The position numbers and the translations under genes are program-made. Positions 1 to 50,480 of a DNA stretch of 64,000 bases are shown here, one piece after another. Origin of the DNA: Bacteroidales bacterium CF (GTDB taxonomy: Bacteria; Bacteroidota; Bacteroidia; Bacteroidales; UBA932). The notes beneath the pieces were generated by a model, which had not been told where the DNA came from, did not search any database, and saw nothing but the letters and a program-made list of their open reading frames with translations. The stretch is taken from positions 496,001 to 560,000 of the forward strand of contig CP006772.1 in the NCBI GenBank assembly GCA_000473305.1. The letters run 5' to 3'. Every line of letters begins with the position of its first letter. The stretch's first letter is position 1.

Positions 1-1263
1 ATTAGATAATACGGTGCTTCTCTTAATCTTATTCAGGCATTGCTCAAGGTTCTTCGGAACCGCCACGGCAGTGCCTGAACTCTTTTCTACAATATCTTTG
101 AACTTTGCAGGATGGGCGGTTTCAAGTACTATTGAACTGTACGACCCCGGGTTGTCCTGCAAATAGTCATTTAGCGCCAGGTAACCTACTGCCCCATGAG
201 GGTCAATCAAATAACCTGATTTTTCGTTGACCTCGCGGATTGCGTTTTGAGTCTGTTGGTCTGTGTATGAGCGGCTGTAGATAACATCCTTGATACTGTC
301 GGCACATCCTCCGAATAATGAGTATATTCGGGCAAAATTGCTGGGATTTCCGACATCCATGGCATTTGATATTGTCTGGACTGATGTCTTAGGCTTAAAC
401 TCCCCTGTCTGCAGAAAGTGGGGAAATATATCATTTGAGTTTACGGCAGCAATGAATTTGTGAACAGGCAGTCCCATCTCTTTTGCAAAGAGACCTGCGG
501 TCAGGTTGCCGAAATTCCCGCTCGGTACAGAAAACACCACACCCTTTTCCCTGTCTTCCACCTGGGAGTATGCGTAGTGATAATAGAACGACTGGGGAAG
601 CAATCTGGCTATATTAATCGAATTTGCCGAGGAGATCCTCACCCTGGATTTCAGCTCCTCATCTGCAAATGCCTGTTTAACCATCCTCTGACAGTCGTCG
701 AAGGTCCCTTTTATCTCTAAAGCTGTAACATTACCACCCAGAGTTGTCAGTTGCTGCTCCTGTATCCGGCTTACCTTTCCCGATGGGTATAGAAGCACCA
801 CGCTCACACCGGGAATATTGTGAAACCCATTTGCAACCGCACTTCCGGTATCACCAGAAGTTGCTACGAGTATAACCAGCTCTTTGTTCTCATCCTTATT
901 AAAATATGATAATGTCTCCGCCAGAAACCTTGCGCCGAAATCCTTGAAAGCAAGGGTGGGACCGTGGAACAGCTCAAGCACGTATTTGTCTTTGCCGAGG
1001 TTTACCAAGGGTGCAGTGAAAGTAAATGCACGTCTGATGATTCCGAACATGTCATAGTCGGGAATTTCGTCTTTTAGCAATGTTCTGGAGACAGCAAATG
1101 CGATATCCTGAAGGTCGAGAATATTGATTCTTTCGAAAAAGGCCTCCGGCATTTTTGGCAGTGAGAGTGGCATAAATAGTCCTCCATCTTCAGATATGCC
1201 TTTTATGACTGCCTCCCTGAAGGTTACAAGCTTGTTTCTGTCGTTTGTGCTGTAAAGTTTCAT
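1..1263 (-). CDS. thrC: Threonine synthase, C-terminus cut by window edge
   Basis: Pyridoxal-phosphate enzyme converting O-phosphohomoserine to threonine, last step of the pathway. I translated this from the ATG at 1263; 421 residues lie in the window with no stop, and the family is usually about 430 long, so only the last few residues are missing. The PLP lysine is visible in the stretch HGPTLAFKDFG (Lys107), followed by a serine/glycine phosphate-binding segment ATSGDTGSA. It starts 4 nt after the thrB stop, so it is the distal gene of thrA-asd-thrB-thrC and should share the attenuator control seen upstream of thrA. No Shine-Dalgarno is present, as usual here. Function is confident from motifs and operon position. 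Confidence 0.95.
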   Translation of the reverse strand, partial: MKLYSTNDRNKLVTFREAVIKGISEDGGLFMPLSLPKMPEAFFERINILDLQDIAFAVSRTLLKDEIPDYDMFGIIRRAFTFTAPLVNLGKDKYVLELFHGPTLAFKDFGARFLAETLSYFNKDENKELVILVATSGDTGSAVANGFHNIPGVSVVLLYPSGKVSRIQEQQLTTLGGNVTALEIKGTFDDCQRMVKQAFADEELKSRVRISSANSINIARLLPQSFYYHYAYSQVEDREKGVVFSVPSGNFGNLTAGLFAKEMGLPVHKFIAAVNSNDIFPHFLQTGEFKPKTSVQTISNAMDVGNPSNFARIYSLFGGCADSIKDVIYSRSYTDQQTQNAIREVNEKSGYLIDPHGAVGYLALNDYLQDNPGSYSSIVLETAHPAKFKDIVEKSSGTAVAVPKNLEQCLNKIKRSTVLSN

Positions 1264-1267
1264 AATG

Positions 1268-2206
1268 TTAATTCAGTTCAATTATTCTTGGCCCGTTTAG
1301 GTTTATTTTTGACACATAAAGCTCTGATCTGAGCTGGTGTTTCAACAGACTTTGCTGCATTGCAAGTCCTGCTTTTCCGGCTGTTTCAGCCCCTTTTGAG
1401 AGTGCAAATACGGAGGGTCCCGATCCGGATATGCTGCATCCCAGCGCCCCGCTCTCCAGGGCTGCCCTTTTTATGTCTGAGAAACCCGGGATGAGTTGTG
1501 ATCTGACTGGTTCTATTACAACATCCTCAAGAGAACGGCCTATTAGCTCGTAGTCACTTTTGAGCAGGCCTGCGACGAGTGCCGCAGTATTGCCCCATTG
1601 TCTTATTGCTTTTGATAGTGAGATCTCTGACGGAAGAATCTCTCTCGACTCTCGTGTTGAAATCTCTATCTGCGGGTGTATTACAGAACAAAAAAGCTCA
1701 TCCGGGACATCCAGTTTGATGATGTCGAGGGGCTCGTAGCTTCTTATAAGAACGAATCCTCCATACAGACAGGGTGCAACGTTGTCTGCATGGACAGATC
1801 CGCTGGCAAGCTGCTCCCCCTCAATCGCAAAATTGAGCAGCTCTTTTATTGGTAAATCAAGTTCGAGCAATCTGTCAAGGGCAAATGCGGCCGCCACGGC
1901 ACTGGCAGCGCTGGATCCGAGTCCGCTGCCCAGAGGCATTTTCTTATGGATTTCCATCTCAATGCCACACGTTATGCCGAATTTTTCCACCATTGAGAGA
2001 AGAGGTTTTCCAGCCGTGTTTAAAGCGGCATCGAGAGGTAAACGTCCCTCATCTCCTGAGATTTTTGTAATTCTCACTCCGGGTTTTCCGGAGGTTCTTA
2101 TCACAACTTCATCTCCGGGCTCGTCGATGGCAAACCCCATGATGTCAAATCCGCATGCAATGTTTGCAACTGTTGCCGGTGCAAATACCTTGACTTCATT
2201 TTTCAT
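1268..2206 (-). CDS. thrB: Homoserine kinase
   Basis: GHMP-family kinase that phosphorylates homoserine with ATP, giving the substrate of threonine synthase. 312 residues, the normal family length. The glycine/serine-rich ATP loop PLGSGLGSSAAS lies at residues 91-102 and the C-terminal GHMP motif is seen near residue 255 (GCSISGSGPS). The ATG at 2206 gives a start directly on the conserved N-terminal segment VKVFAPATVAN. It sits 8 nt after asd and 4 nt before thrC, so it is cotranscribed with both. Cytosolic. Confidence 0.95.
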   Translation of the reverse strand: MKNEVKVFAPATVANIACGFDIMGFAIDEPGDEVVIRTSGKPGVRITKISGDEGRLPLDAALNTAGKPLLSMVEKFGITCGIEMEIHKKMPLGSGLGSSAASAVAAAFALDRLLELDLPIKELLNFAIEGEQLASGSVHADNVAPCLYGGFVLIRSYEPLDIIKLDVPDELFCSVIHPQIEISTRESREILPSEISLSKAIRQWGNTAALVAGLLKSDYELIGRSLEDVVIEPVRSQLIPGFSDIKRAALESGALGCSISGSGPSVFALSKGAETAGKAGLAMQQSLLKHQLRSELYVSKINLNGPRIIELN

Positions 2207-2214
2207 TTTTGACC

Positions 2215-3264
2215 TTATATGTTTTTTAGGTAACCCATTTTGTACATTAGCTCTGCATTGAGAATTGCACCACCGGCAGCTCCCCTGATTGTATTATGTG
2301 ATGTTATGACAAATTTGTAGTCAAAGACCGGACACTCCCTGAGTCTGCCGACAGACACTGCCATTGCCTTGTCAATATTCCTGTGAAGTTTTGGTTGCGG
2401 GTAGTTTTTCTCTTCAAAATAGTGGACAGGATTTGCAGGGGCTGATGGCAATTCGTACTGTTGTGGCAGGGCAATGAATTCTCTCCACACAGCTTTAATC
2501 TCATCAATTGAGGCCTTGTTTTTTAATTTCACCTGCACAGTTTCTGTGTGACCATCGATTACAGCCACCCTGTTACACTGTGCACTTATTTTTATATCTA
2601 TGTTCTCTATTTCTGAGCCGGTGTATTTGCCTAGAATTTTCAATGGTTCGCTCTCCATCTTCTCCTCTTCGCTTCCGATGAATGGAATAACATTGTCAAT
2701 TATATCAAGAGATGAGACTCCCGGGTAGCCTGCTCCTGAAAGCGCCTGCATTGTCACCACATTTACAGTTTCAATTCCGAATTTATCCTGCAGCGGTTTG
2801 AGTGCCAGAACCAGACCTATGGTTGAGCAATTGGGATTTGTTACTATTGCCCCTCCATATTTTTGGCTTTTTATGAGTTCAAGATGGTCGGGATTTATCT
2901 CGGGAATAAGCAACGGTACATCCTTGTCAAATCTGTGATTGCGCGAGTTTGATATCACATAATACCCTTTTTCTGCAAACTCCTGCTCTATCTCTCCTGC
3001 TACAGAGGCATCAAGTCCTGAGAAAACAATCCTGCTCTCCAGTACGGGACGGCACTCTTTAACAGTCAGGGCAGATGCCTTTGCAGGAAGAGGAGTTGAC
3101 TGTACCCAGTTCACGGCATCTTTATATAATTTTCCGGCAGAACGTTCGGAGGCGGCAACCTCGTGTAGTTCGAACCATGGATGATTTTGAAGTAGTTCTA
3201 TGAATTTTTGTCCTACGCTGCCGGTTGCACCAAGTACGGCCACTTTTAACTTCTGTTTTTCCAT
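2215..3264 (-). CDS. asd: Aspartate-semialdehyde dehydrogenase
   Basis: NADP-dependent reductive dephosphorylation of aspartyl phosphate to aspartate semialdehyde, the branch metabolite for Thr, Met, Lys and cell-wall diaminopimelate. The N-terminal Rossmann motif VLGATGSVGQ and the catalytic cysteine in NPNCSTIGL are present. The overall pattern is that of the archaeal/fungal-like ASADH branch rather than the enterobacterial one. An in-frame TTG lies three codons upstream (3273), but the ATG at 3264 puts the start directly before KQKLKVAVLG and is preferred; this gives 349 residues. It lies between thrA and thrB in the same operon, 27 nt after thrA. Confidence 0.93.
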   Translation of the reverse strand: MEKQKLKVAVLGATGSVGQKFIELLQNHPWFELHEVAASERSAGKLYKDAVNWVQSTPLPAKASALTVKECRPVLESRIVFSGLDASVAGEIEQEFAEKGYYVISNSRNHRFDKDVPLLIPEINPDHLELIKSQKYGGAIVTNPNCSTIGLVLALKPLQDKFGIETVNVVTMQALSGAGYPGVSSLDIIDNVIPFIGSEEEKMESEPLKILGKYTGSEIENIDIKISAQCNRVAVIDGHTETVQVKLKNKASIDEIKAVWREFIALPQQYELPSAPANPVHYFEEKNYPQPKLHRNIDKAMAVSVGRLRECPVFDYKFVITSHNTIRGAAGGAILNAELMYKMGYLKNI

Positions 3265-3291
3265 TTTTAACAATTTTATATTTTTTTAATT

Positions 3292-5736
3292 TTAAACACT
3301 CTTTAGAATATCTGCGAATACACCGCAGGCTGTTACTTCAGCTCCGGCTCCCGGGCCTTGTATGACCAATGGTCTGGTACTGTAATATTTACTGCTGAAA
3401 GCAACTATATTGTCATTGGCCTTAAGCGGAAAGAACGGATGAGAACTGTCAACAGCCTTTAGCGAGACAGAAGCCTTGCCCTCTTTGAGGCTTGCGATAT
3501 ATCTCAGTACTTTACCTTCCTTTTTTGCCATGTTAAGCTTTTGCTCAAATAAAGAATCAAATCCCTTCATCTCTTTATAGAATTCTTCCACATTACCTGT
3601 CAAAGAAACCCCTTCGGGTATAAGGCTCTCAAGCTGAATCTCCTCCATTTCCATCTTAAATCCGGACTCTCTTGCAAGAATCAGCAGCTTTCTGGCAACA
3701 TCCATCCCGTTCAGATCATCTCTCGGATCCGGCTCGGTATATCCCTTTGCCTGTGCATCTTTGACAAGTTCAGAAAACGGAACACTTCCGTCATAGGTGT
3801 TGAATATGTAGCTGAGTGTGCCGGATAACACTCCTTCAACAGAGATTATTTTGTCTCCGCATGATATCAGATCCTTCAATGTTCCCACTACCGGGAGACC
3901 TGCTCCGACATTTGTCTCATACAGAAACTTTGATCCGCCTCTTTTTGAGCTTAACCGGATACTATTGTAAAAATCCATTTTAGATGAATTCCCTTTCTTA
4001 TTAGGCGTAACAACAGAGATTCCTGCAGCGAGAATCTCCGGATATTTAGTTACATAGCTTTCACCTGGAGTACAATCCACAAACACAGACCCCTGAAGGC
4101 TCATGGAAAGCATCTTGTCGACGAAAGTGTCCGGACCGGCAACATCTTTTGATCCGGAAAGTGAGGATTTCCATTGCTTAAGTTTTATTCCTCCGTTTTC
4201 AAATAGCATCTTCCTACTGTTTGCAACAGCAATCACCTCTATTTTCAAAAGAGAACCCTTGAACAGATCATTTTGCTGTCTTTCAATCTGGCTTAGGAGC
4301 TCGCTGCCGATAAGACCGGTGCCGGCAAGGAATATATTGACAGGCTTGTGTCCGTTGTTAAAGTATGTGTCATGAATGGCATTAAGGGCCTTGTTGAGAT
4401 CTGACTTGGCAATTACGGCAGAGATGTCAAGTTCTGAGGAGCCCTGTGCTATGGCTATGATATTCACTTTGCTTCTGCCCAGTGATTGAAAGAATTTACC
4501 GGCATTGCCCGGTGTCTGTCTCATCTGAGCCCCGACGACTGTGACAATGGAGAGGTCGTTTGTTATACTGACTTCGTTTACAATCTTTGCCTGAATCTCA
4601 TATTTGAACTCTTTCTCAATGCATCTTTTTGCCTTGACAGCGGAGTCCGGCATTACGGCTATACAAATCGAATGTTCAGAGGAGGCCTGAGATATAAGTA
4701 TGACGTTTATATTCATGTTTGCCAGAGATCCAAATACTCTTTTGGAGATTCCGGCAACCCCTATCATTCCGCTTCCCTGTATCAATAGCATTGAAATGTT
4801 GTCTATTGAGGATATCCCTTTTATGGCGAACCTTTCGTTTTCACTTTTTCTTCCAATCAAAGTTCCGGGGAAAGAGGGGTTCATGGTGTTCATTATCCTG
4901 ATAGGTACATTTCTGTCCATAGCAGGTTGCATGGTAGGAGGGTAGATTACTTTTGCACCGAAGTGTGACATCTCCATAGCTTCATCGTATGTAAGCGAAG
5001 GCACGGAAAATGCCCCTTTGACCTTTCTTGGGTCAGCGGTCATGACGCCGTCAACGTCTGTCCATATCTCAATCTCTTCAACCTGTAAAGCAGCGCCAAA
5101 AATGGAAGCAGTGTAATCAGATCCTCCTCGTCCGAGTGTGATTGTCTCACCTCTCTTTGTGGATGCTATGAACCCTGTGATTATCTGTAGTTTGGAGTGA
5201 CTTTTGAAATATATCTCAATGTTCTTGTCTGTTATCTCAAAATTGATCCTCCCGGCTCCGAAATTATCATCGCAAATCAACAAATCCCTGCTGTCTAAAA
5301 ACTCGGCATCCACACCTCTCTCTTTTAAAGCTTCGCTTATAATGTAAGAAGAAAGCCTCTCTCCGAAACTTAATATATGGTCAAGAGTTTTTCCTGTCAA
5401 CTCTTTTACCAGAGATACACCATGAAGAATATCCGAAAGTTCCTTGAGGTTGAAAAGTATATTGGTCAGTATATGGCTCTGGTTTTTGACGGGAATTAAT
5501 TCTCTCACAGCTTCGAAATGTCTCTCTTTCAGCTCTTCAAGAGATGTGTGATACTGTTGATTACCACAGGAAGCAAGATTTGCCAGATTAATTAGTGTGT
5601 CCGTAACTCCCTGGAAGGCAGAGAATACAACTGCTATTCTGCCATTGTTCCTGTCTGAATTAACAACAATATCAATTACTTCCTTGATACGGGACGGACT
5701 TCCTACAGATGAGCCGCCGAACTTTAATACCTTCAT
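3292..5736 (-). CDS. thrA: Bifunctional aspartokinase / homoserine dehydrogenase I
   Basis: Fusion enzyme for the first and third steps of threonine synthesis: ATP-dependent phosphorylation of aspartate, and reduction of aspartate semialdehyde to homoserine. Order along 814 residues: aspartokinase domain about 1-300 with KFGGSSVGSP at 5-14 and LGRGGSDYTA at 201-210; two ACT-type regulatory domains about 305-460, where allosteric threonine inhibition is expected; then homoserine dehydrogenase about 465-814 with the nucleotide-binding GTGLIG at 472-477. Length and order match E. coli ThrA. It is the first structural gene of the operon and begins 29 nt after the attenuator terminator stem, so its transcription depends on read-through. 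Confidence 0.96.
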   Translation of the reverse strand: MKVLKFGGSSVGSPSRIKEVIDIVVNSDRNNGRIAVVFSAFQGVTDTLINLANLASCGNQQYHTSLEELKERHFEAVRELIPVKNQSHILTNILFNLKELSDILHGVSLVKELTGKTLDHILSFGERLSSYIISEALKERGVDAEFLDSRDLLICDDNFGAGRINFEITDKNIEIYFKSHSKLQIITGFIASTKRGETITLGRGGSDYTASIFGAALQVEEIEIWTDVDGVMTADPRKVKGAFSVPSLTYDEAMEMSHFGAKVIYPPTMQPAMDRNVPIRIMNTMNPSFPGTLIGRKSENERFAIKGISSIDNISMLLIQGSGMIGVAGISKRVFGSLANMNINVILISQASSEHSICIAVMPDSAVKAKRCIEKEFKYEIQAKIVNEVSITNDLSIVTVVGAQMRQTPGNAGKFFQSLGRSKVNIIAIAQGSSELDISAVIAKSDLNKALNAIHDTYFNNGHKPVNIFLAGTGLIGSELLSQIERQQNDLFKGSLLKIEVIAVANSRKMLFENGGIKLKQWKSSLSGSKDVAGPDTFVDKMLSMSLQGSVFVDCTPGESYVTKYPEILAAGISVVTPNKKGNSSKMDFYNSIRLSSKRGGSKFLYETNVGAGLPVVGTLKDLISCGDKIISVEGVLSGTLSYIFNTYDGSVPFSELVKDAQAKGYTEPDPRDDLNGMDVARKLLILARESGFKMEMEEIQLESLIPEGVSLTGNVEEFYKEMKGFDSLFEQKLNMAKKEGKVLRYIASLKEGKASVSLKAVDSSHPFFPLKANDNIVAFSSKYYSTRPLVIQGPGAGAEVTACGVFADILKSV

Positions 5737-5764: not shown

Positions 5765-5798
5765 AAAAAAACCGGCTTCTTATTAAAGAAGCCGGTTT
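5765..5798 (-). terminator. Attenuator terminator of the thr operon
   Basis: On the minus strand a perfect 13-bp stem (AAACCGGCTTCTT, pairing with 5769-5781) closes a 4-nt loop and is followed by a run of T residues. This is a textbook intrinsic terminator placed between the leader peptide and thrA rather than after a gene. Its 5' arm (5788-5797) can alternatively pair over 10 bp, with two G-U wobbles, with 5822-5831 just after the leader peptide stop. That alternative is the antiterminator. Confidence 0.9.
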
Positions 5799-5829
5799 CA
5801 ATTTTTATATATGCCAAACATAACCAACT

Positions 5830-5910
5830 TCAATCATACAACGCTGTTGTTGTGATTGTTGACATGGATGTTGAACCCATAATAATTGAAGTTGTGTGTT
5901 GGATTGTCAT
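5830..5910 (-). CDS. thrL: Threonine/isoleucine-rich thr operon leader peptide
   Basis: A 26-codon ORF, too short for usual gene calling, with ATG at 5910 and TGA at 5830. The peptide begins MTIQHTTSII and ends MSTITTTALYD; 8 of 26 residues are Thr and 4 are Ile, and seven of the eight Thr codons are ACA. It lies between a consensus promoter (5936-5966) and the attenuator terminator. Codons 5-8 form segment 1 (5885-5894), which can pair perfectly over 10 bp with segment 2 (5825-5834), and segment 2 overlaps the leader stop codon. Expected role: ribosome stalling at Thr or Ile codons when these charged tRNAs are scarce. No function as a protein is implied. The name follows the enterobacterial analogue; homology is not claimed. 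Confidence 0.85.
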   Translation of the reverse strand: MTIQHTTSIIMGSTSMSTITTTALYD

Positions 5911-5935
5911 TTCTATCTTTCGAATTATAACGGAA

Positions 5936-5966
5936 CAAAAGTAGTCGAATAAATTAAATATTCAAA
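5936..5966 (-). promoter_or_regulatory. Promoter of the thr operon
   Basis: On the minus strand TTTG (5966-5963), a 19-nt spacer, then TACTTTTG (5943-5936). This matches the Bacteroidetes primary sigma consensus TTTG-N19-TAnnTTTG exactly. Transcription would start around 5930, some 20 nt before the leader peptide ATG. Confidence 0.85.
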
Positions 5967-5973
5967 TATTTTT

Positions 5974-8418
5974 TTACTGATTTTGTATAATCGGTATTGT
6001 AAAAAAGAATGTACTTCCCTTACCCTCCTGTGAATCAAGCCAAATCTCGCCACCTAAAATCTCTACATATGCCTTTGAAATTGTAAGCCCAAGTCCGGTC
6101 CCTCCATATTCCCTGATATCTCCCCTCTCAACCTGAGTGAAGCTATTGAATATTTCACCTTGCATTTTCTCCGGAATACCTATACCAGTATCTTGTACAT
6201 AGAATTCAATATAATCGCCTCTCCTTGAGCAGCCTATCTCCACGACGCCCTCCTTGGTGAACTTGACAGCATTATCCATCAGGTTTGTTAAAATCTCTTT
6301 TAACTTATATATATCCGAACGGATATGGTTGTCTTCATCAGATATATTGATATTGTGCTGTATCTTCACTGATGACTTTCTCAAATTCAGCCGAATTGCT
6401 TTAAAAACAGAGACTATAAGCTCTTTAATGTCAACATTGTCATTTATCACTTCAAGCTGGCCTGTCTGAATAGAGGAAACTTCAATTACCTTGTTTACAA
6501 TATTCATAAGAATAAAGCTGTTTTCAGAGATCATTCTCGTGTATAGACTTCTTTGCTCTTGAGTAGTGTCATCGCTGTCAAGAAGATCTGAAAATCCCAG
6601 GATTGAATTCATCGGCGTCCGGATTTCATGGGAGATATTGTGAAGGAATGCCGTTTTTAGTCTGTCGCTCTCTTCAGCTTTCTCTTTGGCAAGTATCAGC
6701 TCCTCCTCAATCTTTTTGAGCTCAGTGATATCAGTCATTATTCCGTCCCAATATCTGATTCCGTCCGATTGTCTCGGTCTTGAATATATCGACAGCCAAA
6801 CTGTATCTCCCTCAGAGTTAATTACTCTGGAAATTGTGCTTAAAGGAACGCCTTCAGAAAATGAATGCCTCACTTCTGAACTTATCCTGCTGAAATCCTC
6901 GGGGTGAATTTTGTTGAAAACGAGTGATGCATCAGAATACGCCTCATCAATTGTACATCCGAACAAATGCTCGGTTGAGTGACTCAAAAATGTGAATCTC
7001 TCTTTTCCGTCATCACCTACGGTAGTCTGAAAAATCAATACATTTACAAGTCTTTCTGTAATCAACTGTATCTGTTGCTGCTGTCTTTCAGCTAATTTCT
7101 TTAATGTTATGTCATGGGCAAACATTGAGACACCTGTAACCACTCCATTCTTTTTCAGAGTGCGTGAGTATATTTGCAGATATACTTTCCCGGAGGCAGA
7201 TCTGAATTCGCACTCATAGGCCTCATTATTCAATACATGGTTGTATATATCATGCCAAATTGCCTGCTGCTGCTTGTCATTTGGAAATAGATCCTCGAGA
7301 TTCATCCCGGTTCTAACAGGAATATGCATCTCATTCATGATGAACTTTCCGAAGGAGTTATTCCATTTTACAAGTTGGAGATTATTAATAGTAATAGACC
7401 AGATCAGATCAGGAGTGCTGTCAAGAATTGAGTTCAATTCTCTCTGTGATTCTTTAAGATTTGCCTCAACTTTACTCCTGTATTCGTTTTCCAGCTGTAG
7501 CTCATCCAGAAGTGCCCTTGCCTCACTGTTCTTTTTCTCCAGCTCTTTAGTCTTTGCCTTCACCCGATTCCTCAGAAGAAGCGTAAATGATGAAAGCAGG
7601 ATAAATGAGATAATCAAACCGGCAAATAACGGTCTGTATTTCTTGAAAAAATTTATCCTCTCATGAACACGAAACCACTTATTGTATATTTTATCATACT
7701 CTCCGGACTCTTTAACCTTTAGCAGACCTACATTGACCAATCCCAGAAGCTCCTCATTCTCTTTAGTTGTTACATAGCAATACTCTCTCGGAAGAACGCC
7801 TGAAGCTCCCATTGTGAGGTTTCTGATATGGTATTTGTTAATGAAGTACATTCCCTGAATTTCGCCTATCCACGCGGCATCGTGTTTCCCGGATGCCAGT
7901 AGGCGAAGGGCTTCAAGCGGATCTTTAACGTGAATTATCTTGTTTGTTATTTTATGTTCTAAGAGAAAGTAGTAAATGAAATCCTGGTTTTGTACAATTA
8001 CCTCTTTGTTTCCCAATTGATCAATAGTCCGGATTTTTGTCCCTTTTCGGGTGAAGATCCCGGATGTCAATATGCTGTGGGCGAAACTGTATTTAACATT
8101 CGTCGATCGGTTGGGAGTAACAACTGCTCCAAGAAGCAAATCCGCCTTTCCACCGGTGAAATCCTTCCACACATTGCCCCACTCGCCAAGCTCAATCTGA
8201 TAGCTGATCCCCATCTCTTTGGCAATTAACCGGAATAATTCAACATTAAATCCGTCCGGTTCGCCTTTGTCGTTTATGAATTCATGTGGGGGGTAGTTAT
8301 TGTCTCCCTTTATGATAAAGACTTTGTCATCAATACTTTTATCGCCGTCATAATAAGCGGCAGTAAGAGATGTTGATAACATTAAAAAAAGAGATAGTAC
8401 CAGGCAATGTCTTTTCAT
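5974..8418 (-). CDS. Membrane sensor histidine kinase with periplasmic solute-binding domain
   Basis: Signal-transducing kinase. Order in 814 residues: signal peptide 1-21; SBP_bac_3-type extracellular domain about 33-250 (amino-acid-binding-protein fold, with DGFNVELFRLIAKEMG and LLLGAVVTPNRS); a transmembrane segment about 264-283; a short coiled coil; two PAS domains about 325-440 and 455-575; a HisKA box with phosphoacceptor His597 in HNISHEIRTP; and a HATPase domain with N box Asn716, DTGIGIP from 743 and a GGTGLGL lid. No receiver domain is fused and no response regulator gene is adjacent, so its partner is elsewhere. The binding-domain type suggests an amino acid or similar small polar ligand. 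It ends just upstream of the thr promoter, but nothing shows that it controls thr. Confidence 0.9.
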   Translation of the reverse strand: MKRHCLVLSLFLMLSTSLTAAYYDGDKSIDDKVFIIKGDNNYPPHEFINDKGEPDGFNVELFRLIAKEMGISYQIELGEWGNVWKDFTGGKADLLLGAVVTPNRSTNVKYSFAHSILTSGIFTRKGTKIRTIDQLGNKEVIVQNQDFIYYFLLEHKITNKIIHVKDPLEALRLLASGKHDAAWIGEIQGMYFINKYHIRNLTMGASGVLPREYCYVTTKENEELLGLVNVGLLKVKESGEYDKIYNKWFRVHERINFFKKYRPLFAGLIISFILLSSFTLLLRNRVKAKTKELEKKNSEARALLDELQLENEYRSKVEANLKESQRELNSILDSTPDLIWSITINNLQLVKWNNSFGKFIMNEMHIPVRTGMNLEDLFPNDKQQQAIWHDIYNHVLNNEAYECEFRSASGKVYLQIYSRTLKKNGVVTGVSMFAHDITLKKLAERQQQQIQLITERLVNVLIFQTTVGDDGKERFTFLSHSTEHLFGCTIDEAYSDASLVFNKIHPEDFSRISSEVRHSFSEGVPLSTISRVINSEGDTVWLSIYSRPRQSDGIRYWDGIMTDITELKKIEEELILAKEKAEESDRLKTAFLHNISHEIRTPMNSILGFSDLLDSDDTTQEQRSLYTRMISENSFILMNIVNKVIEVSSIQTGQLEVINDNVDIKELIVSVFKAIRLNLRKSSVKIQHNINISDEDNHIRSDIYKLKEILTNLMDNAVKFTKEGVVEIGCSRRGDYIEFYVQDTGIGIPEKMQGEIFNSFTQVERGDIREYGGTGLGLTISKAYVEILGGEIWLDSQEGKGSTFFFTIPIIQNQ

Positions 8419-43533: not shown

Positions 43534-43564
43534 TTTGGAGATTTAAAAAAAGTGCATACCTTTG
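43534..43564 (+). promoter_or_regulatory. rRNA promoter of the 16S-less 23S-5S unit
   Basis: TTTG (43534-43537), 19-nt spacer, TACCTTTG (43557-43564): the same elements and spacing as the promoter in front of the complete operon (50283-50313). The transcript would begin near 43570 and reach the 23S gene after about 180 nt of leader with the GTTCTTTGAAG box at 43590. Confidence 0.85.
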
Positions 43565-43749
43565 CAGCCCGTTTGAGAAAAAACGGACAGTTCTTTGAAG
43601 TTTTGAGAGAGATAAAGAGGTAAAGAAAAAAAGAGATAGAATTAATTGAGTATATGGCGACATATACGAAAGATTCATCTCGAGCGAGGAAAAAAAATAA
43701 GATTGGGTCTGTTTAATTGAAAGATTAAGGGACTACAATTTCAAACTTA

Positions 43750-46625
<2,876 letters not shown>

Positions 46626-46760
46626 GAAAGCAGGGACTGCAGCCATGCAGTCCCCAGCGGAAAGCATACGCGTACTTCTTGTCTCTCTCTTTACATAAAA
46701 TACCGCGAAAGCGAGCAAAATAATGGAGTCTTACAGCAATGTTAGACAACAAGCAAGCTT

Positions 46761-46870
<110 letters not shown>

Positions 46871-46875
46871 CTTTT

Positions 46876-50175: not shown

Positions 50176-50480
50176 CGTTTAGATTAGTGTCGGGCTCTAA
50201 AAATAACCCGAAAATTATTAGGCAGAGGCAAAGGGAGTTGCGCCCCGGGTAAGCAAATTCTTGAAAAATATTTTGAAATATTTTTGGATTGGAAGAGATA
50301 ATGTTTACCTTTGCACTCCCCAAACGAACGGGCCCTAGGGCAACGGGAATAAAGGGGAACGATCTTTGAAAGAATTGGAAGACAAGTACAACAATAAAGT
50401 ACAATAAAGAGTAGAGCGTTGATTCAATTTTGAGGAATGAATCGGAGTAGGGACAAGCTAAAAGTTTAAAAAATTTTTAC
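50176..50480 (+). other. Gap and leader before the complete rRNA operon
   Basis: 305 nt. It holds the weak stem after etfA, the rRNA promoter (50283-50313), and a leader that contains GATCTTTGAAAG at 50361, similar to the GTTCTTTGAAG box in the spacer and before the lone 23S. No gene. Confidence 0.7.
50283..50313 (+). promoter_or_regulatory. Promoter of the complete rRNA operon
   Basis: TTTG (50283-50286), 19-nt spacer, TACCTTTG (50306-50313): exact Bacteroidetes consensus and the same architecture as at 43534. Confidence 0.88.

Follow-up and report, generated by a model that had tools for sequence, protein, structure and literature searches.

A predicted threonine-responsive transcription attenuator upstream of thrA in Bacteroidales bacterium CF

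The thrA-asd-thrB-thrC operon of Bacteroidales bacterium CF is very probably controlled by a ribosome-mediated transcription attenuator that would read the level of charged tRNA-Thr. This assignment is based on the anatomy of the leader, its recurrence in relatives, a codon-to-helix ruler, its position before a threonine operon and the occurrence of histidine and isoleucine/valine units in the same genome. A Thr-responsive attenuator consisting of leader, antiterminator and terminator had been proposed in a sequence-only reading of this DNA. The proposal is supported by conservation of the unit in relatives, by its E. coli-like layout and by the hisG and ilvD units found alongside.

Organization of the thr leader and operon

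The minus strand between 5966 and 5765 of the window, the 64,000-nt stretch of DNA analysed here, was read as a promoter of the Bacteroidetes type, an ORF of 26 codons, two 10-bp helices that exclude each other and a terminator of 14 bp. Downstream of this leader, Pfam domains and gene context gave the operon order thrA-asd-thrB-thrC. The features are listed below.

5963-5966, minus strand: −33 element TTTG of the Bacteroidetes-type promoter, from sequence reading
5936-5943, minus strand: −7 element TACTTTTG, 19 nt past the −33 element
5830-5910, minus strand: leader ORF MTIQHTTSIIMGSTSMSTITTTALYD with its stop codon; 26 codons, ATG at 5910, TGA at 5832-5830
5885-5894, minus strand: segment 1, CAACTTCAAT, in codons 6-9; exact complement of 5825-5834
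5845-5859, minus strand: codons 18-22 (Thr Ile Thr Thr Thr), where the ribosome is proposed chiefly to stall
5822-5834, minus strand: segment 2, which holds the stop codon; the antiterminator 5′ arm is 5831-5822
5786-5799, minus strand: segment 3, antiterminator 3′ arm (5797-5788) and terminator 5′ arm
5765-5781, minus strand: segment 4 and T-run of the intrinsic terminator, from sequence reading
3292-5736, minus strand: thrA, aspartokinase-homoserine dehydrogenase (PF00696, PF22468, PF03447, PF00742)
2215-3273, minus strand: asd, aspartate-semialdehyde dehydrogenase (PF01118, PF02774)
1268-2206, minus strand: thrB, homoserine kinase of the GHMP kinase type (PF00288, PF08544), named from gene context
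1-1263, minus strand: thrC, threonine synthase (PF14821, PF00291, PF24857), running past the window edge
5974-8418, minus strand: sensor histidine kinase carrying a solute-binding domain (SBP_bac_3), PAS, HisKA and HATPase_c, directly 5′ of the leader

The coordinates of the sequence-only reading proved right to within one base or codon. The consensus promoter that it described is present and consists of TTTG, N19 and TACTTTTG, a −33/−7 arrangement which we take to be the consensus for Bacteroidetes promoters. The pattern TTTG-N18-20-TANNTTTG has three matches in the window (shuffle mean 0.93; at least three in 11 of 100 shuffles), and the remaining two lie directly 5′ of the window's two rRNA units. 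The first of these units (43534-46872, promoter pattern 43534-43564) carries 23S and 5S rRNA, with 16S absent at the Rfam gathering score, and the second (promoter pattern 50283-50313) carries 16S, 23S and 5S; ARAGORN found no tRNA between 40000 and 56000 of the window. Elements of the −33/−7 type, 18-19 nt apart, are also seen 5′ of the leaders of the related loci L032, L004 and L054, and the leader promoter of L003 has GTTG as its −33 element. At L003, 4 nt separate the −7 element from the leader ATG, and the leader mRNA would begin at or beside the AUG.

Segment 1 is a perfect 10-bp complement of 5834-5825, as had been claimed, although it lies in codons 6-9 and not 5-8. The antiterminator is formed by 5831-5822 with 5797-5788 over 10 bp with two G-U pairs, exactly as read before. 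The terminator formed by segments 3 and 4 was found to have 14 pairs (5799-5786 with 5781-5768) rather than 13, and its T-run reaches 5765, leaving a gap of 28 nt to the start of thrA at 5736. A second thrA-like gene in the genome, 42% identical, is without a leader-terminator unit.

Threonine codons and the position of the stalled ribosome

The leader peptide contains 8 Thr and 4 Ile residues, as had been read. At the composition of the long open frames in the window, the probability of at least 8 Thr in 25 residues is 3e-5. Among 662 small ORFs of the window (ATG-started, 15-45 codons, both strands, nested starts counted apart), only the thr leader and an ORF at 19718-19623 had at least 6 Thr and 25% Thr. 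The leader ORF is rich in codons of the product of its operon, a property of ribosome-mediated attenuators.

The relation between codons and helices was scanned by setting the ribosome on each codon and folding only the RNA beyond it, from 16 nt past the first base of the P-site codon to the terminator loop. The 16-nt front edge is the value for the E. coli ribosome. Pairs between the terminator 5′ arm and upstream RNA were scored, and a fall below 70% of the maximum was taken as collapse. The window's antiterminator can form all its 10 pairs with the ribosome anywhere from codon 3 to codon 23; at codons 24-27, 7, 4, 0 and 0 pairs are left. The last Thr codon is codon 22, and the distance from its start to the 5′ end of the antiterminator arm is 16 nt. 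In all 15 units found in three families (see below), the collapse falls 0-3 codons past the last clustered Thr, compared with 5.5 units when the peptides were shuffled; with the front edge placed at 13 or 19 nt the ruler holds in 11 or 14 of the 15, versus 6.5 or 4.8. Before the collapse, Thr occupies 93 of 230 codons, versus 2 of 41 at and after it (p = 1.8e-6, with sequences that are non-independent within a family). Thus, in the scan, a stall at the regulatory codons frees the antiterminator arm and a ribosome at the stop codon covers it.

Initiation, ribosome stalling, the choice of pairing partner in the cell and regulated readthrough are predicted to proceed as follows. Transcription would start shortly 5′ of the leader ORF. 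A shortage of Thr-tRNA would make the ribosome stall at Thr codons, no later than codons 20-22, with its front edge just short of segment 2. Segment 2 could then pair with segment 3, the terminator would be blocked and thrA transcribed. When Thr-tRNA is plentiful, the ribosome would reach the stop codon inside segment 2 and cover that segment, segment 3 would pair with segment 4 and transcription would end at about 5765. In untranslated RNA of the CF genome, segment 1 would pair with segment 2, likewise favouring termination. The masking of segment 1 by the stalled ribosome, as proposed in the earlier reading, would require a stall at about codons 6-14; a ribosome at Thr codon 18 or 20-22 would be past segment 1 and just before segment 2, leaving segment 2 free.

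Occurrence of the unit in relatives

A match was found in 22 of 25 genomes of the genus, yet the window's kind of thrA is confined to six of them. Leader and terminator precede this kind of thrA in the window, L032/L058, L003/L059, L054 and L004; the sixth (L033) is truncated by its contig end. Identity of thrA to that of the window is 89% for L032/L058, 65% for L003/L059 and 50% for L004, and 63% for L054 over the remaining N-terminal part. At L054 (G151:C1, 2286-1339, minus strand), thrA is cut to about its first 235 residues and a short later piece in one frame, and asd is missing between this remnant and thrB; leader, thrB and thrC are kept, and an assembly fault is possible. In the 52 upstream regions of family and genus the unit is present in 5, and the 47 without it belong to other thrA or aspartokinase kinds. 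A scan of the genome contigs gave three loci, namely the 89% relative, the 65% relative and a 35% aspartokinase.

Beyond the genus, the unit was searched for in 393 genomes of the order and then in families f22 and f119. In the order search, 144 of the 393 genomes yielded a match at the threshold chosen, with 28 new loci; for the listed matches 100 upstream stretches were fetched. L061 and five of the fetched stretches (L119, L128, L168, L170 and L199) were left out as unplaceable, so that 122 regions were obtained. A Thr leader followed by a terminator was found at L062 and L209 of f22 and at L074, L078 and L203-L206 of f119, with a sequence that differs from the window's. L074 and L078 carry two tandem leader-terminator units in the last 450 nt before thrA. 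The upstream regions of two other f119 thrA genes, L207 and L208 (= L100), contain no unit. In a quick tree of 78 ThrA proteins, with long branches and no bootstrap, L062, L074, L078, the window, L032, L003, L004 and L033 form one clade with an SH-aLRT value of 98; L203-L209 are outside the sample of this tree. L063, whose thrA is outside the clade, passes a crude filter for a Thr-rich ORF and a terminator. The DNA pattern TGAAGTTGG-N18-46-CCGGCTTC matches 11 of the 393 order genomes, the window's own included.

Filtering strictly for Thr clusters (TTTT, or 5 or more Thr within 8 codons) was dropped as a means of detection, as it misses the window itself. It selected 3 of the 52 family and genus regions and 21 of the 122 order regions, compared with 0 and 0.4 in dinucleotide shuffles and 1 and 0 on the reverse strand. 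Since the filter misses the window, the 15 units rest on inspection of the upstream regions as well.

Compared with the 89% relative, thrA carries 26, 13 and 229 changes in the 500 first, second and third codon positions of its first 1500 nt. The leader ORF has 6 of 81 nt changed with the frame kept, the 43 nt from the stop codon to the terminator loop are unchanged, and the terminator has changes only at or beside the loop. Four of the five changed leader codons alter the Thr content, which rises from 8 to 10 overall. The spacer between terminator and thrA has 1 of 26 nt changed and is as conserved as the helices; the conservation is therefore not limited to the helices.

The earlier reading had also suggested that the leader senses isoleucine besides threonine. 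All four Ile codons of the window leader precede the collapse, so a stall at any of them would also free segment 2. The five genus leaders carry 2-5 Ile each and the two f22 leaders 3 each, and the genome encodes ilvD and a threonine dehydratase with a regulatory C-terminal domain. However, the excess of Ile is non-significant in single leaders (P = 0.11 in the window and 0.11, 0.37, 0.13 and 0.04 in the other four of the genus), and Ile is absent from 6 of the 15 units (L203-L206, L074b and L078b). The ilvD gene of the CF genome has a leader of its own. Sensing of isoleucine is a possibility to be kept in mind, with the balance tilting somewhat against it.

Competing helices and the choice between them

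An intrinsic terminator lies between the leader ORF and the first gene in all 15 units (shuffle mean 0.2). The leader region folds with a z-score of −6.4, a value equalled by none of 200 shuffles. Even for a stalled ribosome, the window's terminator (−21.4 kcal/mol) is more stable than its antiterminator (−11.8 kcal/mol), hence the pairing choice must fall during transcription. The antiterminator is exclusive with the terminator, weakly so for L004: its energy was equalled by 8 of 500 linker shuffles in the window, 4 in L032, 2 in L003, 0 in L054 and 134 in L004. In eight units of f22 and f119 (L203 and L206 left out) the number was 13 to 60 per 500. The number of antiterminator pairs in the window was equalled in 120 of 500 linker shuffles and is less telling than the energy.

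Over the five genus sequences, 92% of cells are paired in the antiterminator 2:3 (54% or less after sliding) and 96.7% in the terminator 3:4 (68% or less after sliding). Eight units of f22 and f119 share the pairing GUUGAGA/UCUCAAC in 96.4% of cells (slid at most 56%), and a 5-bp short form of the 1:2 helix, CAACC/GGUUG, in 97.5% (slid at most 58%); changes in both of these helices are one-sided only. Covariation of the segments had been put forward as a check. It yielded one two-sided change in 2:3, U-A to C-G in L054, and one G-U change. This is thin, and none of the four counts passed the letter-shuffle control, the observed value being reached in 95, 500, 500 and 500 of 500 shuffles; covariation alone is therefore no proof of the helices.

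The classical 1:2 helix could in principle be the main route of regulation, segment 1 being masked by the stalled ribosome. The perfect 10-bp 1:2 helix of the window and the CAACC/GGUUG pairing kept in the eight f22 and f119 units are consistent with such a course, and 1:2 is the ribosome-free fold in the window and L032, to which 1:2 as the default pairing of the earlier reading is now confined. In L003 and L054, however, the ribosome-free fold is the antiterminator 2:3, and segment 1 lies upstream of the main Thr cluster. A mainly 1:2-based control appears rather unlikely. With no ribosome on the leader, termination with 1:2 formed would be expected for the window and L032, and readthrough with 2:3 formed for L003 and L054.

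It is highly improbable that the hairpin does no more than terminate the upstream histidine-kinase gene, with the thrA promoter elsewhere and the Thr-rich ORF arisen by chance: the kinase gene does point toward thrA and stops at 5974, with 63 nt left to the leader ATG, and a terminator there would be ordinary, but the promoter pattern sits between the kinase gene and the leader, the 28 nt from T-run to thrA are too short for another such promoter, leader and terminator are still there in L054 where the upstream gene is different and on the other strand, and the Thr content and ruler of the leader speak against it.

Comparison with known attenuators

The attenuator proposed for the window was compared with E. 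coli thrL (RF00506, Thr_leader). In both, a Thr/Ile-rich leader ORF lies 5′ of a fused aspartokinase-homoserine dehydrogenase gene, and an antiterminator and a terminator are alternatives. In the same scan, the pair count of E. coli thrL stays at 10 as far as codon 14, falls to 9 and then 6 over its last two Thr codons and finishes at 0, so that in both systems the antiterminator is lost around the last Thr codons. The E. coli antiterminator (−8.9 kcal/mol) is also weaker than its own terminator (−24.3 kcal/mol). Unlike thrL, the window has a Bacteroidetes-type promoter and asd inside the operon. The enterobacterial design cited in the earlier reading is matched in layout, yet the window falls outside the enterobacterial Rfam family: it scored 22.9 bits against RF00506, versus a cut-off of 55 and 122.1 for the E. 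coli leader, and no Rfam family matched the window leader at the gathering score. It is well supported, as far as sequence analysis goes, that the unit works like the E. coli thr attenuator without belonging to it by sequence. The thr attenuator design and the codon-to-helix ruler thus extend to sequence without detected enterobacterial kinship.

The Bacteroid-trp motif precedes trp genes, and differs from the window in the amino acid concerned. RF01692 (Bacteroid-trp) had no match at the gathering score in the window or 20 related loci. PMC2864571 counts the motif among the probable cis-regulatory RNAs of Bacteroidetes. The main text of PMC9723704 gives clues of leader-peptide attenuation 5′ of amino-acid operons in Flavobacterium psychrophilum, and that of PMC7366714 describes sORFs that resemble leaders within the long 5′ UTRs of Bacteroides thetaiotaomicron. 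As far as these main texts go, both systems are from the window's phylum and alike in the principle proposed; the terms 'thrA' and 'threonine' occur in neither.

In a collection of open-access papers, as distinct from subscription papers and supplements, we recognised no description of a thrA attenuator in Bacteroidetes. Attenuator predictions by Vitreschak et al. in 2004 (FEMS Microbiol Lett 234:357-370) reportedly included Bacteroidetes/Chlorobi and may cover relatives of the window unit. The unit described here would be a fully drawn Thr attenuator in Bacteroidales, and its relatives define its working distances. To our knowledge, mRNAs of Bacteroidetes are without Shine-Dalgarno sites; an attenuator in such a phylum would make the tightness of transcription-translation coupling directly testable.

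Histidine and isoleucine/valine leaders in the same genome

Two further loci were picked for their genes and read without a formal null, and each carries the codons of its own product. The hisG leader MSKRTNINALHHHHHHHRHHKWQVAFSV (L202, 2283-2197, minus strand) has 9 His and is followed by a 14-bp terminator. In the scan, 12 pairs are kept to the seventh His of the run and the collapse comes at codon 20, the last His. The ilvD leader ORF (L201, from 1249, plus strand), for which a GTG start was assumed, has 6 Ile, 5 Val and 1 Leu among 18 codons, and is also followed by a terminator. It keeps 18 pairs up to the last Ile at codon 15 and collapses at codon 18 of 18. In view of these two units, the CF organism likely uses attenuation generally. 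The Pfam family Chorismate_bind, sought as a pointer to trpE, had no match in the genome.

A second leader architecture upstream of thrA

A hairpin of the form ACCCC-loop-GGGGT was found in 37 of the 122 order-level thrA upstream regions, 35 of them distinct (shuffle mean 0.1). The loci include L083, L086, L138, L139, L143, L148, L153, L174, L179 and L192. Leader ORFs with Thr codons end in this hairpin, which codes for TPWGV or TP-stop, and some also have Met codons, as in WALMTPWGV. In 34 of the 35 loci (L080 is without upstream sequence), the frame with ACC as Thr has 109 Thr among 340 codons in the ten codons before the hairpin and no stop, versus 11 and 8 Thr in the other two frames, which contain stops in 16 and 8 loci. 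Most of the hairpin loci have no recognisable terminator: in the 130 nt past the hairpin one was seen in 2 of 35 loci at the middle setting (shuffle mean 1.1), compared with 15 of 15 units of the window type, and in 10 of 35 at the loosest (4.0 in shuffles), and weak ones are possible in a minority. Twenty loci, hairpin-type members included, had no Rfam match at the gathering score.

We advance only tentatively, and consider rather doubtful, the view that control of thrA by Thr-codon leader ORFs is an order-wide habit with at least two unrelated RNA architectures, the second acting by other means. If it is true, the hairpin type would be a leader-peptide regulator acting, for example, via Rho, RNA stability or thrA translation. 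The hairpin type appears to be a separate regulator and is possibly unreported.

Met- and Thr-rich ORFs were also observed 5′ of thrA at two loci of family f64, METVRFSSFSTTAMRTMRTRTYTMVMFTWESFRPVNH in L063 and a similar frame in L067. They adjoin a hairpin of the GGCGGCTGG type and are perhaps a Thr/Met leader.
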